Notes under the pieces: model-generated
Databases searched by the model: none
Told to the model about the DNA's origin: nothing
What the model saw: only the letters and a program-made list of their open reading frames with translations
Shown here: piece by piece, positions 31,238-38,119 of the stretch
How positions within the stretch are numbered: the first letter of the stretch is position 1
How the letters are laid out: every line of letters starts with the position of its first letter
Made by a program: the position numbers and the translations under genes
Source of the DNA: Halobacterium rubrum
Lineage (GTDB): Archaea; Halobacteriota; Halobacteria; Halobacteriales; Halobacteriaceae
Assembly: GCF_021729015.1 (NCBI RefSeq)
Contig: NZ_JAJQQZ010000001.1
Coordinates: 682,001-746,000 of the forward strand
Direction of reading: 5' to 3'
Length of the DNA: 64,000 nucleotides

Positions 31238-31406
31238 TGCAACCATCCGTAGGGCCGGTTCGGGGATAAGAGTTGCGAGTGTCGGCGTACCACGGTCCGC
31301 TGCACCACGAACGAGGAACCGGCGGGTCGACGGACGGGACTGGGCCCCGACGGACTAGCACAGTCTCAACAGGCTTATGGAGGCCTCCCGGCGAACAGAG
31401 GGTGTA

Positions 31407-33329
31407 ATGAGTTCGGTCACTGTGACGCTGCCGGACGGGTCCACGCTCGACGTGGAGTCCGGCGCGACGGTCGAGGACGTAGCGTACGAAATTGGGCCTG
31501 GCCTCGGCCGTGACACAGTCGCTGGGAAGATCGACCACGAGCTGGTGGCGAAAGAACAGCCGATCACCGAGGACTGCGAGATCGAGATCGTCACGGACCA
31601 GAGCGACGAGTACCTCGACGCGCTCCGGCACACGGCCGCACACGTGCTCGCGCAGGCAATCCTCCGCCACCACCCCGACGCGAAGCTCACCATCGGCCCG
31701 TACACCGACGAGGGCTTCTACTACGACGTGGCGGACGTCGAGCTGGACGCCGACGACCTCGCGGAGATTCAGGCCGAGGCGGAGGCCATCATCGACGAGG
31801 ACCTCGACGTCGAGCGCGTCGAGTACGCCCGCGAGGACGCCCGGGAGACGTACGAGGACAACGAGTTCAAACGCGAGATTCTCGAGACGGAGGCGGCGGG
31901 CGACGGCCCCGTGAGCTTCTACGAGCAGGGCGAGTTCGAGGACCTCTGTCGCGGCCCGCACGTCGACTCCACTGGCGAAATCGGCGGCTTCGAAGTGCTG
32001 GAGACCTCCGCTGCCTACTGGCGGGGCGACGAGGAGCGCGAGACGCTGACGCGCGTGTACGGCACGGCGTTCCCGACCGAGAGCGAACTCGAGGACTACC
32101 TCGAGCGCCGCGAGGAGGCCCAGGAGCGCGACCACCGGAAGCTCGGCCGGGAGATGGACCTGTTCTCCATCCCGGACGTCACCGGCCCCGGCCTCCCCCT
32201 CTATCACCCGAACGGGAAGACGGTGCTGCGGGAGCTCTCCGAGTTCGTCCACGGCCTGAACCGCGAGATGGGCTACGAGGAGGTCGAGACCCCGCACCTC
32301 TTCCGCACGGAGCTCTGGAAGCAGTCCGGGCACTACGACAACTACGTCGACGACATGTTCCTCCTCGACGTCAACGACGAGGAGTACGGCCTGAAGCCGA
32401 TGAACTGCCCGGGCCACGCCACCATCTTCAATCAGGGGTCGTGGAGCTACCGCGACCTGCCCGTGCGGTACTTCGAGGACGGCAAGGTGTACCGCAAGGA
32501 GCAGCGCGGCGAGCTCTCCGGGCTGAGTCGGGTGTGGGCGTTCACCATCGACGACGGCCACGTGTTCGCGCGCGCAGACCAGATCGAGGAGGAGGTCCGG
32601 CGGCTGATGGACACCATCATCGAGGTCCTGGACACCTTCGACCTCGACTACGAGGTGGCGCTCGCCACGCGCCCCGAGAAGTCCGTCGGCAGCGACGAGA
32701 TCTGGGAGCAGTCCGAGAACCAGCTCCGGGAGGTGCTCGACCAGCAGGGCGTCGACTACGACGTCGAACCCGGCGACGGCGCGTTCTACGGGCCGAAGAT
32801 CGACTTCGGGTTCTCCGACGCGCTCGGCCGCTCGTGGGACGGCCCGACGGTCCAGCTGGACTTCAACATGCCCGACCGCTTCGACCTGGAGTACACGGGC
32901 TCGGACAACGACGCCCACCAGCCGGTGATGATTCACCGCGCGCTTTACGGGAGCTACGAGCGGTTCTTCATGGTGCTCATCGAGCACTACAACGGTCGGT
33001 TCCCGACGTGGCTGGCGCCCGAGCAGGTGCGCATCCTCCCGGTGACGGACGACAACCTCGGGTACGCTCACCGCGTGAAGAACGAACTCGACGGCTACCG
33101 CGTCGAGGTCGAGGACCGCGACTGGACGGTCGGCCGGAAGATCCAGCAGGCCCACGACGACAACGTCCCGTACATGCTCGTCCTCGGCGACGACGAGGAG
33201 GACGCCGGGACGGTCTCCGTGCGCGACCGCCAGGAGCGCGAACGCAACGACATCCCCCTCGCGACGTTCCTCGAGCACCTCGACGCGGAGGTCGAGGGCA
33301 AGCGTACCGAACCCGACTTCCTCGCGTAG
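31407..33329 (+). CDS. thrS: Threonyl-tRNA synthetase (bacterial-type, with TGS domain)
   Basis: This 640-aa class II synthetase charges tRNA(Thr). Domains in order: TGS (about 1-65, [17 protein letters not shown]), editing N2 domain with [11 protein letters not shown] and YYD, class II catalytic core ([37 protein letters not shown]), and anticodon-binding domain ([10 protein letters not shown] to [10 protein letters not shown]). The zinc-binding residues Cys and His of the core are visible (MNCPGH and downstream His). This layout is bacterial-type, as usual in haloarchaea. A diverged copy of the last 53 codons lies 0.8 kb downstream. Confidence 0.97.
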
Positions 33330-33336
33330 CTGGCTG

Positions 33337-33831
33337 ATGTCGCGGGCGCCGGTCGGCCTCGGCGCCGGCACGTACGTCGCGTTCCTCCTGGCCGTGCTCG
33401 GCGCGATAGCGTGGGCGACGGGGACGGCGGCGCTGCTGCCGAGTCTGGGGCCGTCGGCGTACGTGCTCGCCGCCATCGACGACCGGCCGCGGCGGGTCGT
33501 CGTCGGTCAGTTCGTCGGCGCGCTCGCGGCGTTCCTCGCGGTGCTCGCGTTCGCCGGCACGGCGACGCCGCTGCTCGACGCCGCCGCCGGGTCGACGGCG
33601 GGGCTGCGCCGCATCGCCGCGGCGCTGGTCGCGACCGTCGTCGCCACCGTCGGAATGACCGCCACCGACAGCCTCCACCCGCCCGCGTACGCGACCGTGC
33701 TGATCGTCTCGCTGGGCATCGCCGACGACGCGCTGGACGTCGTGGCGTTCGGTGTCGGCGTGCTCGTGCTCGTCGCCACCCACGGCGCCGTCGACCGGCT
33801 GGGGCCCTGGCGGCCGCCCTACTCGCTGTAG
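33337..33831 (+). CDS. HPP family integral membrane protein
   Basis: The 164-aa product has four to five hydrophobic helices with the family signature DSLHPPAYAT, the His-Pro-Pro motif of HPP proteins, some of which are linked to nitrite transport. It starts 8 nt after thrS and is probably co-transcribed with it. The last 13 nt overlap the end of the truncated membrane gene on the other strand, so its C-terminus may have been affected by the rearrangement there, although the ORF is intact. Confidence 0.8.
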   Translation: MSRAPVGLGAGTYVAFLLAVLGAIAWATGTAALLPSLGPSAYVLAAIDDRPRRVVVGQFVGALAAFLAVLAFAGTATPLLDAAAGSTAGLRRIAAALVATVVATVGMTATDSLHPPAYATVLIVSLGIADDALDVVAFGVGVLVLVATHGAVDRLGPWRPPYSL

Positions 33832-34118
33832 TCGCTGGAGTTGCGGTCTCTGGTCGCGCGGTCGGTTTCCCGGAGGACGAACGCGCCGATAGACAGCGTG
33901 CGCTTGGTGACGGTGACGACGCGGAGAATGTACGCCAGTAGTAACGCGAACGGTGACACGGCGACGGTCGTCGCGGCGCTCACGGCGACGAGGGCGTGAT
34001 TCACTCCGAACGTCGCCCCCGGGTACTGCGCGGGGTCGAACAGCAGGACGGTGGCGACAGACACGCCGAGTGCGGGCATCGCGGCGTACAGCAGCTGCCG
34101 GGACAGCTCCGAGAGCTC
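33819..34118 (-). pseudogene. 5'-truncated copy of the membrane protein gene at 35847
   Basis: Translation of the minus strand gives about 99 residues clearly homologous to the C-terminus of the 359-aa protein at 35847-36926: LLAYILRVVTVTKRTLSIGAFVLRETDR against LLSYILRIVTVTKRTLSIGPFILRETDR, and [14 protein letters not shown] against NLSRTILYASIPAL. Homology stops exactly at 34118, where the upstream codon becomes TAG and a thrS-like fragment begins on the other strand. The remaining ORF from an internal ATG (34079) encodes 86 residues with two helices and might still be translated. Confidence 0.82.
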
Positions 34119-34119
34119 C

Positions 34120-34281
34120 TACATGCTCGTGCCCGGTGACGACGAGGAGGACGCCGGCACCGTCTCCGTGCGCGACCGCAAGGAGCGCGAACAGAAGGAC
34201 ATCGCCCTCGACGCGTTCGTCGACCACCTCGACAGCGAGGTCGCGGGCAAGCGCACCGAACCCGACTTCCTCGTGGAGTGA
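34120..34281 (+). pseudogene. 3' remnant of a second thrS copy
   Basis: Codons from 34120 read [20 protein letters not shown], then [13 protein letters not shown] and [11 protein letters not shown] before TGA. This is the C-terminal end of threonyl-tRNA synthetase, matching thrS from about 33171 on. By eye about four fifths of the bases agree, so it is an old or imported copy. No catalytic part remains. It abuts, back to back, the truncated membrane gene at position 34119, marking a duplication or recombination junction. Confidence 0.85.
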
Positions 34282-34314
34282 TAGGGCCTGCCATTCCTGG
34301 TCCGAATACTCTCG

Positions 34315-35499
34315 CTACGCCCGTACTGTCGCCGTTCCGTTCGTCCCAGTTGCCGAGACACTCCCAACAAACGACTCACTTCCGACGAGTAGCACGGTCG
34401 TCTCCGGCGCTACGCGGGTCAGTTTGGCGGTCGCATTCAACTCGCTGCGGGCGTCCAGATACGTTTCGACGCCACGCTCGAATTCGGTGGCATTAGCGGG
34501 GTCGTCCCAACGTAGTATCCACGCGTAATCCCTGGCGGTTCCGCTGCCGAACACGACACGTCTGTCGTTCCCCCAGCCGTCGGCAGCCTGGGCCGCGGTG
34601 GACTCACTGAGTGCGGTACCTAGGAGTGCCCTCGCGTACATCTCGCCGAACCGCTTCTGGACTGTCGTCTCTCGTGCCGTCTCGACAGTCACCGAGAGCG
34701 GTGCCACTGGCTCGCTTCCAGGGGGGAGCGCGTGGAGGAGTTCTTCGGTCGTCTGTGGCGGATTCTCGTAGATTCGGTGAAGCTGTTCGGGCGATGTGAG
34801 TGTCGTGTCGACGTACCGTGTCCCGAAGTAGTAGGGTGCCGCATCAATTTTCGTCGTTCCCGTGGCGTTCTGATACCGCTTCCGGAGATTAACTTGCGTA
34901 TAGTTCGTGTACCGTTGTGTGTACCGCTGCGACACGTACGTCGCGCTGCCCTCGACGATTGCCCTGTACGTGTTGACTCCGTCCCGTGTGCTGTGGAATT
35001 CGTCCCAGAGCGGCTCGAGGAAGTTCTGTCGCATCTGTATGGTGTGTAGGTACTCGTGTGCGAGCGTCGTCTCCAGTCCAGTGCTGCGATTAAGTGCGGA
35101 GTCGTCGAGCGTTATCTGGTTCCCCGGCGGCGTCGTTCGTCCGAGTGGACCACCACTGGCGGACCCTTCGACGCCGAGCAACTGCTGGAACCGAGGCGGA
35201 GTCTGCGTTTTTTCCGTGGAGAGGTTCTCGACGGTGACCGCTACTGGTGGCCCCACGTCGGCCCCTACTATTCCCGCGACTCGTTGCCAGACCTCACCCA
35301 CGTCGTACGGGAGTTCACCACCGTCTACGTCGATGTTACGGTGTCTATCGGTAGTAGTACCGGGCGTCGAGTGTTCTGTGGATATCATCGACCCCTCTTG
35401 GGTTGGCGGGGCCGTCGTCGTGGACGTGCCCGGTGCCGGTGTTCCCTGGCATCCAGCGAGTAGGAGAAGTAAGCAGCAGCACAGTGCGAGAGTCCGCAT
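34315..35499 (-). CDS. Lipoprotein with HExxH zinc-peptidase-like motif (putative gluzincin)
   Basis: This 394-aa protein has a Sec-type lipoprotein signal (CCCLLLLLAGC, Cys17) and a Thr/Pro-rich linker, then LAHEYLHTIQ with His148, Glu149 and His152, and AIVEGSATYVS with a likely third ligand Glu183, the pattern of gluzincin metallopeptidases. It would sit on the cell surface. Unlike its neighbours it is not strongly acidic and its GC is lower, suggesting transfer. A minus-strand TATA-like ATATTTAAC lies about 26 nt upstream of the ATG. It is divergent from a small secreted peptide gene. Similarity to HVO_1808-type surface proteins is possible. Confidence 0.72.
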   Translation of the reverse strand: MRTLALCCCLLLLLAGCQGTPAPGTSTTTAPPTQEGSMISTEHSTPGTTTDRHRNIDVDGGELPYDVGEVWQRVAGIVGADVGPPVAVTVENLSTEKTQTPPRFQQLLGVEGSASGGPLGRTTPPGNQITLDDSALNRSTGLETTLAHEYLHTIQMRQNFLEPLWDEFHSTRDGVNTYRAIVEGSATYVSQRYTQRYTNYTQVNLRKRYQNATGTTKIDAAPYYFGTRYVDTTLTSPEQLHRIYENPPQTTEELLHALPPGSEPVAPLSVTVETARETTVQKRFGEMYARALLGTALSESTAAQAADGWGNDRRVVFGSGTARDYAWILRWDDPANATEFERGVETYLDARSELNATAKLTRVAPETTVLLVGSESFVGSVSATGTNGTATVRA

Positions 35500-35585
35500 A
35501 CCTATTTTTCTGACCGCTCAGTTAAATATCTACTGTCCAATAATCCACGCTTAAATTTATTAATGTACAATCCCTAGACAGAAAT
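35500..35585. promoter_or_regulatory. Divergent promoter region of the peptidase and Cys-rich peptide genes
   Basis: This 86-nt AT-rich spacer holds back-to-back TATA-like elements: GTTAAATAT at 35521-35529 for the minus-strand peptidase, 22-30 nt from its ATG, and TTAAATTTAT at 35551-35560 for the plus-strand peptide, about 26-35 nt from its ATG. Both transcripts would be leaderless. The close facing promoters suggest joint regulation. Confidence 0.55.
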
Positions 35586-35810
35586 ATGGCGAATAGAATA
35601 CTTGTACTGTTCTGTGTCATGCTCGTCGTGGTCGGAATTGCCAGTCCAGTAGTTGCTGCAGACCCAGAACCGGAGATGTGTACCCCCGGACCAACTTCTG
35701 AGGATACTAGCTCGACTGGAGACGTATCTCCCAACTGCGGTGATGACGGTGAGTACAACGGCAGCATCCCGAGTCCTCCTTGCGGATACACGTGTGGATT
35801 GCCTGTATGA
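35586..35810 (+). CDS. Small Cys-rich secreted peptide precursor
   Basis: The 74-aa product has a clear Sec signal peptide (MANRILVLFCVMLVVVGIASPVVA, likely cut after AA near residue 25) and a mature part of about 49 residues with four cysteines (EMC, NCG, PCG, TCG), rich in Ser, Pro, Gly and Asp. No family is recognised. Codon use and GC match the neighbouring peptidase gene rather than the chromosome. It could be a secreted antimicrobial (halocin-like) peptide or a signal; this is a guess. A promoter just upstream supports expression. Confidence 0.62.
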   Translation: MANRILVLFCVMLVVVGIASPVVAADPEPEMCTPGPTSEDTSSTGDVSPNCGDDGEYNGSIPSPPCGYTCGLPV

Positions 35811-35846
35811 CCTGAGCGGATTCGTATTCAGAAGGAGCCGTTCCCG

Positions 35847-36926
35847 TCACTCCTCGTAGTCGACTTCCCCGGAGCGGTCCGTCTCCCGGAGGATGAACGG
35901 GCCGATGGAGAGCGTCCGCTTGGTCACCGTGACGATGCGGAGGATGTACGACAGCAGGAAGGCGAACGGGAGCAGCGAGATGGCCACGCCCGCGCAGACG
36001 ACGAGCAGGACCGTCTCGACGCCGAGCAGCGTGCCCGGGAACAGCGCGGGTTCGAGGTAGACGATGCCCATCACGGCCGCCGCGAGCGCCGGAATCGAGG
36101 CGTAGAGGATGGTCCGCGAGAGGTTGATGAGCTCCCACTGGAAGTACAGCGTCTTGAAGTGCTCGCGGGCCGGCCCGAACAGCTCCAGTGCCTCCACGAG
36201 GTCGTCGAAGGCCGCCCGCGCGTCGTCGTCCAGCGAGTCGGCGTGCTCCGCGCGGAGTCGCCGCGCGGCGTATATCTTCCAGGAGTAGTTGTAGTTCAGC
36301 GCGGCGAACACCACGTTGAACGTGCCGAACTGCGCGCCCTCGAGGCTCTGCTCGACCGCCGCCGCGTTGCGCTCGACGTCCTCGACGAACCCCGCTACCC
36401 GATCGTTCAGGTCGGCGTCGTCGATTGCCGCGACGGCGTCGTCAACGGCGTTCGCCCGCTGCTTCGTGAGTTTCACGAGCGACCGCAGGAACGCCGACGG
36501 CTGGGCCGGGCTGACCGGCTCCTCGATAACGTCCTCGACGTCCGACCGGAACGCCATCGCGCCCTCCATGCGCTCGCGCTGGTCGCCGACTGGGCCCTGC
36601 TCCTGGGAGAGCACGAGTTGGCTCAGCGTCAACACCAGCGTCACGCCCGTGATGATTGCGGTCAGCAGTCCCTGGAACAGCGTCTCCATCGGGTCACCGC
36701 CGTCCAGCAACGTCCGGACGCTCGTCGGGTGGAGGGTTCCGACGAGGACGAGTGTGACGAACACGCCCGCCACGATGCCGCCCGCGACGAGCCACCGGTT
36801 AGCGTTCAACAGCAACCAGAACTTCCGAGAGCTCTCGGGCACCCGCTCCCGCATCGTGTCGCTGGGCTGGTCACCCTTCTTTGGGCCGTCCTCAGCCTCG
36901 CTCTCTTCGTCCGCGTTCGAACCCAT
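35847..36926 (-). CDS. Conserved haloarchaeal membrane protein (intact paralogue of the truncated copy)
   Basis: This 359-aa protein has an acidic N-terminus of about 35 residues, two helices at about 50-115 (WLVAGGIVAGVFVTLVLVG and LTAIITGVTLVLTLSQLVLS), a long soluble helical middle of about 150 residues, and two more helices before a conserved tail (LRIVTVTKRTLSIGPFILRETDR). I do not recognise a named family. A truncated relative lies 1.7 kb away at 33819. It sits at the right edge of the lower-GC islet and itself has normal haloarchaeal composition. Confidence 0.78.
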   Translation of the reverse strand: MGSNADEESEAEDGPKKGDQPSDTMRERVPESSRKFWLLLNANRWLVAGGIVAGVFVTLVLVGTLHPTSVRTLLDGGDPMETLFQGLLTAIITGVTLVLTLSQLVLSQEQGPVGDQRERMEGAMAFRSDVEDVIEEPVSPAQPSAFLRSLVKLTKQRANAVDDAVAAIDDADLNDRVAGFVEDVERNAAAVEQSLEGAQFGTFNVVFAALNYNYSWKIYAARRLRAEHADSLDDDARAAFDDLVEALELFGPAREHFKTLYFQWELINLSRTILYASIPALAAAVMGIVYLEPALFPGTLLGVETVLLVVCAGVAISLLPFAFLLSYILRIVTVTKRTLSIGPFILRETDRSGEVDYEE

Positions 36927-37073
36927 TACTCCCCGCTTGACGGTTCGCGCGGAAAACGCTGGTTGCTGGAGCCGCCCCACTCCGATAGCCGCCGAGGCCC
37001 TGACGAACACCCAGGGAGGATTCGATACGCTGCGTTGGATCGCCATCGAACCGGTCGCCGTCGCGCCCAGCGT

Positions 37074-37430
37074 TCAGAGGAGCTCCTCGCGCAGGAACGC
37101 GGCGAGGACGACGGCGTTGTTGTGGGTCTCGTCACTCGCTGCCCACACCAGCGTGAGCGTCTCGTCGTCGGCGTACTCCAGTACCTCCGACCGGAGTTCG
37201 CCGCGCTCGTCGTCGAGTTCTGCGCGGTACTCCCGCTGGAACGCCGCCCAGCGCTCCGGGTCGTGGTCGAAGTGCTCGTGGAGCTCGTCCGTCGGCGCGA
37301 CGGACTTCGCCCAGTTGTCGAGTGCTGCCTCGTCCTTGCTGACCCCGCGCGGCCAGAGGCAGTCGACGAGCACGCGCGCCCCGTCCCCGGGCGCCGGGTC
37401 CTCGTAGACGCGTTTCGTCCGCACCTCCAT
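37074..37430 (-). CDS. DUF488 family protein
   Basis: The 118-aa protein shows the DUF488 pattern: TKRVYEDPAPGDGARVLVDCLWPRGVSKDEAALDNWAK at the start, HEHFDHDPERWAAFQREYRAEL in the middle, and TLTLVWAASDETHNNAVVL near the end. The conserved Cys, Trp and Arg in the first segment are retained. The family is widespread with unknown function. No partner is visible; the next gene is divergent. Confidence 0.88.
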   Translation of the reverse strand: MEVRTKRVYEDPAPGDGARVLVDCLWPRGVSKDEAALDNWAKSVAPTDELHEHFDHDPERWAAFQREYRAELDDERGELRSEVLEYADDETLTLVWAASDETHNNAVVLAAFLREELL

Positions 37431-37516
37431 GCGCGGCCGTTCGCCGGCCGGGCACGTAACGCTACCCGCTATCAGCAATCGCAGGCTACACGGCGGGGGC
37501 TGGCGAACGCTCGGGT

Positions 37517-38119
37517 ATGGACCAGGAGACCGTACTCGTACCCGGCGCGCGGGACGTTGAAGCCACGCTCGACTCGCCACCCGGCGGGGCGTCGGCGTGC
37601 GTCGTCACGTGTCCACCGCACCCCCAGCACCGCGGCCACCGCGGTGACGCCCGCCTCGAAGCGGTCTCGGAGTACCTCGTCGGCGAGGGCCTGGCGTGCC
37701 TGCGGTTCGACTACGGCGACTGGGACGAGGGCCGGGGGGAGCGCGAGGACGCCCGGAACGCGCTCCGGTGGGCCGACGACCGCTACGGGACCGTCGGCGT
37801 CTTCGGATTCAGTTTCGGCGGCTCGATTGCCGCGCTCGCCGCCGCGACGACCGAGGTCGAGCTGTGTGCGGTGTCACTGCTCGCGCCCGCCGCCGAGCTC
37901 CCCGCCGGCTTGAACGCCGCCGACGCCCTCGCGGACGTCACCGCGCCCGTCCAGGTGGTGTACGCGACGCGGGACGACACCGCCGACTGGCAGCCGGTCG
38001 TCGACGCCGCCCGCGAGCTGGACTGCGAGGTCGTCGAGCGCGACAGCGACCACTTCTTCGTCGGGAAACTCGACACCGTCGCCGAGACGGTCGGGCCGTT
38101 CCTCGGAGACGCCTGCTAG
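37517..38119 (+). CDS. Alpha/beta hydrolase, dienelactone-hydrolase-like
   Basis: This 200-aa enzyme has the alpha/beta-hydrolase nucleophile elbow GFSFGGS, an oxyanion region [16 protein letters not shown], a likely acid at DDTADW, and a catalytic His in DSDHFFVGK. The order and spacing fit the short dienelactone-hydrolase or YdeN-like group. There is no signal peptide. The substrate is unknown, and the neighbours give no clue. Confidence 0.85.

Follow-up and report, generated by a model that had tools for sequence, protein, structure and literature searches.

A low-GC islet in the 3.07 Mb genome of Halobacterium rubrum carries two divergent genes, which encode a predicted zinc metallopeptidase of the lipoprotein type and a 74-residue secreted precursor with four cysteines in its mature part, and it lies at a duplication junction. 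We interpret the islet, with a probability of about 0.4, as a two-gene cassette imported from a related haloarchaeon, in which the lipoprotein would act on a halocin-like peptide. The islet belongs to a window of 64,000 nucleotides (G000:C1:682001-746000), which is the whole stretch of DNA analyzed here. An earlier note on this DNA had described the two genes and suggested a functional link between them; its observation is sound and its interpretation of the pairing is partly supported by sequence comparison, and a cassette of a recurring kind appears plausible.

In the proposed mechanism, the cassette would have entered the genome by recombination with related haloarchaeal DNA, and both genes would be expressed from a shared promoter region. 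The peptide would be exported and disulfide-bonded, and would work extracellularly as an antagonist resembling a halocin, a role as a signal being less likely. The lipoprotein would be anchored on the surface of the producer and act on the peptide, either by trimming or activating it or by cutting it to protect the producer. As the peptide of the window has no pro-domain, protection or trimming would be more likely than release from a large precursor. That the lipoprotein acts on the peptide is suggested by the recurrent adjacency of its family to Cys-rich halocin-like precursors elsewhere, which renders a peptidase-peptide partnership plausible.

Layout and genomic context of the islet

Both open reading frames lie where the earlier note had placed them, separated by an AT-rich spacer (Table 1). 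Two TATA-like elements were read by eye from the spacer, judged against the archaeal TATA consensus: one at 35521-35530, 22-31 nt upstream of the lipoprotein ATG, and the other at 35551-35561, 25-35 nt upstream of the peptide ATG. These distances would fit leaderless transcripts for both genes. The composition differs from that of the flanks, as had been proposed, with a GC content of 58.3% in the islet versus 70.3% in the window. The third-position GC is 0.49 for the peptide gene and 0.69 for the lipoprotein gene, versus 0.93-0.94 for thrS and memP (an arbitrary label for a membrane-protein gene). Under a codon model derived from long ORFs, the peptide gene scored -20.8 and the lipoprotein gene 13.1, compared to 167.5 for memP and 372.7 for thrS.

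Table 1. Features of the islet and its surroundings, in positions of the window
Feature	Position	Strand	Remarks
Native thrS, threonyl-tRNA synthetase	31377..33329	+	Coding start probably 31407; Pfam tRNA-synt_2b, TGS, HGTP_anticodon
Native HPP-family membrane protein gene	33337..33831	+	Pfam TM_HPP, 38.9 bits
memP', 3' remnant of native convergent membrane-protein gene	33819..34119	-	79.9% nucleotide identity to the memP 3' end of congener G004
thrS', second thrS 3' end	34120..34281	+	86% to the window's own thrS end, 85% to G004 thrS
Lipoprotein gene, 394 aa	34315-35499	-	Predicted zinc metallopeptidase (HEYLH ... E183), Hvo_1808-related
Divergent promoter region, 86 bp, AT-rich	35500-35585	.	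GC 33%; promoter function predicted
Orphan precursor gene, 74 aa	35586-35810	+	Sec-type signal, mature part of ~50 aa, four Cys
memP, full-length, foreign-type	35847..37046	-	Coding start probably 36926
ORF between memP and conserved hydrolase gene	37074..37580	-	Possibly part of the imported segment

The congeners G004, G001 and G010 share the gene order of thrS, the HPP gene and a convergent memP, and the HPP gene keeps the same position in three congener loci (L032, L033 and L034). In the window, the native thrS matches that of G004 at 95%, and the native HPP gene is followed by the 3' end of memP, a second thrS 3' end, the islet and then a full-length memP; thus the islet sits at the duplication junction that the earlier note had pointed out. 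The full-length memP, whose family has no Pfam match over the cut-off, is 78% identical in nucleotides to its counterpart in G013, of another genus, versus ~72% to those of the congeners. Beyond it, the region of the ORF at 37074..37580, which we take to encode a DUF488 protein, has no blastn match in any fetched congener locus. In the simplest reading of these sequences, the block of thrS', islet and memP would have been imported from a relative and joined to the truncated native memP. No donor was found in which thrS, this gene pair and memP occur side by side. A distant member of the lipoprotein family (27-30%) also adjoins memP in G013 and G019, on the opposite side. Loci L070 and L071 show this adjacency of memP and a peptidase-family lipoprotein in two genomes of another genus.

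The lipoprotein family and the 74-residue precursor

The lipoprotein possesses a lipobox (LLAGC, with Cys17), the motif HEYLH at residues 148-152 and Glu183 within the segment VEGSATYV, which agrees with the HExxH and downstream Glu that had been assigned to it. In a 26-member alignment, C17, H148, E149, H152, G184 and Y193 are invariant, along with other residues, and E183 is nearly so; the lipobox cysteine, the HExxH motif and the downstream Glu are thus all conserved, and zinc binding and peptidase activity are predicted. Its best stretch against the Hvo_1808 family model NF038145 spans residues 123-270, the HExxH region, with an E value of 8.5e-24 and 84.6 bits, below the cut-off of 200. 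By sequence, it is a member of a large haloarchaeal family, related to the Hvo_1808 family yet under its cut-off. At E 1e-3, 42 of the 59 relatives have a homologue, and at E 1e-15 103 of the 392 genomes of the order do; several paralogues per genome are common. Among 110 family ORFs longer than 300 aa, drawn from fetched loci of which some overlap, 104 have the HExxH motif and 102 the lipobox. A search of the PDB by sequence gave nothing beyond signal-region and weak matches, the phage collection gave no match, and PHROGs and PADLOC gave no meaningful match. The AlphaFold2 model, built from only 4 sequences, has a mean pLDDT of 47, a value too low to define the fold.

The 74-residue ORF begins with a hydrophobic Sec-type signal that ends near the VVA/ADP junction, and it has no Tat signal. 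The four cysteines of the earlier description are those of the mature part (residues 32, 51, 66 and 70), the whole ORF having five. The product is short and acidic, and its export and disulfide bonding are predicted. Among 5000 dinucleotide shuffles of positions 35500-35846, 758 contained an ATG-initiated ORF of 60 aa or longer, 3 contained such an ORF with a Sec-type signal, and none combined a signal with at least four mature cysteines, a criterion that was set after seeing the ORF and hence overstates the significance. A chance origin of the ORF is unlikely.

Homology searches with the peptide yielded 3 matches at E 0.01 among 59 relatives, G000 itself included and none convincing, and 14 matches, again including G000, among the 392 genomes of the order. 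The other 13, at per-genome E values of 1e-4 to 1e-2, lie mostly inside longer ORFs and were rejected as chance. Nothing convincing was found in plasmids or viral contigs. The peptide matches no NCBIfam model, and G000 has no match to TIGR04449, the halocin C8 model, nor any to alignment A2, which was built from five of the precursors described below; the best match of the peptide to the precursor cores has an E value of 0.1. Judged by sequence, the peptide is an orphan without a recognizable homologue and belongs to neither the A2 precursor family nor the halocin C8 family. As a consequence, the search for the same two genes together elsewhere, which the earlier note had proposed as a check, fails in the strict sense.

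These results bear on the strongest alternative, namely that the two genes are unrelated passengers: an ordinary lipoprotein would have moved from a purL-linked position, the small ORF would be either non-coding AT-rich DNA or a lineage-specific gene for a secreted protein with another role, and the islet would be an allelic-exchange scar only. The window lipoprotein groups with that of G005 (48-50% identity) in a clade whose members mostly lie directly behind a gene that we take from its sequence to be purL, and its closest relatives (in G005, G016, G022 and others) adjoin this gene without a peptide gene. The purL neighborhoods of G000 and five congeners hold no family lipoprotein, which places the window lipoprotein outside the usual position of its clade. 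The orphan state of the peptide and its negative codon score also favor this alternative, and we give it a substantial chance, though one short of even. It is opposed by the failure of every shuffle to combine a signal with the cysteines, by the TATA-like elements of both genes at leaderless distance, and by the repeated pairing of the lipoprotein family with Cys-rich secreted precursors.

Adjacency of family members to Cys-rich precursors

Secreted Cys-rich ORFs were sought in 90 loci, mostly of 20 kb, that contain a lipoprotein of the family; the window is one of them, which leaves 89 others. Ten candidates lie within 1.5 kb of the lipoprotein, four at 1.5-4.5 kb and eight at 4.5-9 kb. Six of the ten near candidates are Tat-exported precursors of ~236-282 aa with Cys-rich C-termini (two in L066 and one each in L124, L142, L144 and L176) and one is the peptide of the window itself, whereas those in L120, L125 and L170 were rejected as overlapping, poor or N-containing ORFs. 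On reading, the distant candidates resemble ferredoxins, zinc ribbons and spurious ORFs. A halocin-like Cys-rich Tat precursor thus lies no more than 0.5 kb from the lipoprotein at 5 of the 89 non-window loci, two of which come from a single genome (G033), and the other 84 have no such neighbor. When the 89 loci were searched with a precursor profile, every one of the five strong matches lay less than 1 kb from a lipoprotein, in zones that add up to 188 kb of the 1.70 Mb covered. The profile misses the L142 precursor, which was picked up by the Cys criterion, and a further match in L125 (E 6e-4, 7 kb from the lipoprotein) was treated as chance. In L176 the two genes have the same divergent layout as in the window, with ~88 bp between the start codons; the window pair is likewise directly adjacent and divergent across 86 bp, but its partner is not of the Tat precursor family.

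Two of the surveyed loci present further arrangements. L066 (6224-11274, equivalent to L280), from the metagenome-assembled genome QS_1_68_20, is an apparent operon on one strand that contains a lipoprotein, a membrane protein of 214 aa, a tandem pair of precursors and another lipoprotein. In L118 (15053-15784), from congener G007, a Tat-type protein of 243 aa with six cysteines lies ~4.5 kb from a family lipoprotein.

The converse search started from the precursors. Alignment A2 gave 106 matches, five of them the seeds, spread over 52 of the 392 genomes, and 87 non-seed precursor loci were examined (27 from the first search and 60 fetched later), with about ten of the weakest matches left out of the neighborhood reading. 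A member of the lipoprotein family lies within 250 nt of the precursor at 6 of these 87 loci (L184, L187, L190, L194, L235 and L275). The same 52 genomes total 209.6 Mb and contain 273 family matches of alignment A3, a density at which 101 non-seed precursors would by expectation show 0.38 adjacencies. The six observed correspond to a p value of 3e-6; counted as four independent cases, with L184, L190 and L194 merged as one genus with similar surroundings, the p value is 6.5e-4. The partner in L235 was matched by a profile that contains L184-type members. Neighbors with weak lipoprotein-profile matches in L181, L185 and L242 were dropped as other lipoproteins without HExxH.

The pairs vary in arrangement. 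They are on the same strand and nearly touching in L066, L124, L144 and L235, on the same strand with a gap in L142 (~110 nt) and L275 (240 nt), divergent in L176 and L187, and convergent in L184, L190 and L194. On a FastTree phylogeny of 104 family proteins, those paired lipoproteins that were included occupy six separate places. The Tat-exported preproproteins (L178-L207 and L220-L279) share an N-terminal region and have very diverse Cys-rich C-termini; none of the 15 members scanned reached an NCBIfam cut-off, and none of the 6 scanned reached a Pfam cut-off.

Altogether, the claim of a meaningful peptidase-peptide pairing gains support from the family, whose members adjoin halocin-like precursors, Tat-exported and rich in Cys, at a number of unrelated loci. 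It is weakened for the window by the orphan peptide, by the lack of such a neighbor at most lipoprotein loci, and by the purL position of the closest relatives.

Not all paired lipoproteins retain an active-site signature. Intact partners are present in L066, L124, L142, L144, L176 and L275, and the partner in L187 is split by a frameshift. By contrast, four of the six partners of the converse set have no lipobox and have lost catalytic residues: the motif reads HELNH in L184, with Asn at the position of the downstream Glu, HELSS in L190, HELSD in L194 and HELGG in L235. The second His is thus lost in L190, L194 and L235, and the Glu in L184, L190 and L194. These genes lie at 344-1501 in L184, about 262-1416 in L190, 2202-3353 in L194 and 3226-4410 in L235. 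They possibly represent pseudo-peptidases, perhaps immunity proteins, and their persistence beside precursors would argue that at least one branch of the family acts by binding.

The halocin C8 domain, TIGR04449, is present in 39 of 243 genomes. The halocin C8 precursors of L208-L210 have a weak N-terminal similarity to the A2 family, with E values of 2e-4 to 5e-4, and in G160 and G165 the A2 and TIGR04449 matches share one open frame. Halocin C8 domains of equal score (52.3 bits) occur in three genera (G001:C2:39225, G123:C2:76979 and G212:C32:10268) and are perhaps one mobile allele.

Readings of the pairing and comparison with known systems

For the pair in the window, the earlier note had left a choice of processing, immunity or signaling, any of which may apply. 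More broadly, a Hvo_1808-related surface metallopeptidase might serve in haloarchaeal antagonism loci as the maturation or immunity partner of a neighboring secreted Cys-rich peptide, recruited many times independently and in one branch decayed to a pseudo-peptidase; the window would then be a minimal Sec-route form that lost its pro-domain or never had one. We regard this generalization as doubtful.

Two variants of the preferred reading, a cassette whose lipoprotein acts on the peptide, differ in what that action would be. In the first, one of immunity or sequestration, the lipoprotein would protect the producer by binding the peptide at its surface, with some branches also cutting it, and other proteases would mature it. 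The partners that adjoin precursors despite lost catalytic residues would fit binding rather than cleavage, and a 2026 paper describes HlyR4, a serine protease that is secreted, as the activator of both halocin H4 and HapP (PMC12893001). On the other hand, ProC8, the precursor of halocin C8, is described in the consulted part of another source as Tat-exported and as yielding HalI and HalC8, and it carries its own immunity part, HalI (PMC11509114). Most precursor loci have no partner, and eight adjacent lipoproteins keep HExxH and the Glu, with one (L187) frameshifted. We consider this variant rather unlikely.

Halocins are thought to require proteolytic maturation, and in the second variant the lipoprotein would be a protease devoted to activating the precursor encoded beside it. 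Distances of 3-240 nt separate family members from precursors with pro-regions of ~150 aa, and the two genes often share a strand (L066, L124, L144, L235 and L275), which fits this role; the 2026 paper states that the halocin C8 protease has yet to be identified (PMC12893001). However, none of the 12 true TIGR04449 loci examined has a family gene as a neighbor, one branch appears to consist of pseudo-enzymes, and the window peptide itself offers no pro-region to remove, which leaves this variant distinctly improbable. A cell-density or mating signal trimmed or inactivated by the peptidase is compatible with the anatomy of a short and acidic peptide, but it is very unlikely, as no receptor or regulator gene was recognized within the islet and no precedent was found in the literature searched.

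A lipoprotein peptidase family that recurs beside halocin-like precursors offers, across several genera, specific candidates for the enzymes of halocin maturation or immunity. We found no paper on a lipoprotein-precursor pairing in a literature search whose coverage excluded most subscription journals, and the words lipoprotein and HExxH are absent from the main text of PMC12893001.

Compared to known systems, the lipoprotein shares a haloarchaeal surface location with the Hvo_1808 family, which has no assigned function. Its likeness to the putative metalloprotease MXAN_6640 (NF045524) is a weak match of the HExxH region only, with an E value of 0.0024 and 17.7 bits, where the cut-off is 140. 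The peptide resembles halocin C8, called the best-characterized halocin in the consulted part of PMC11509114, in being a small, secreted, Cys-containing product, and the precursors beside relatives of the lipoprotein show the distant N-terminal similarity to HalC8 precursors given above. However, it differs from the halocin C8 family in its Sec rather than Tat signal, its length of 74 aa, the absence of a HalI-type pro-region and the absence of a TIGR04449 match. HlyR4-HapP and HlyR4-HalH4 offer a functional parallel, in which an extracellular protease acts on a secreted antagonist precursor; serine proteases released by the cell are reported to activate precursors of haloarchaea (PMC12893001). 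HlyR4 is a secreted serine protease for which the sections consulted describe no genetic pairing (PMC12893001), whereas the window holds a predicted zinc lipoprotein that is encoded next door to its putative partner.
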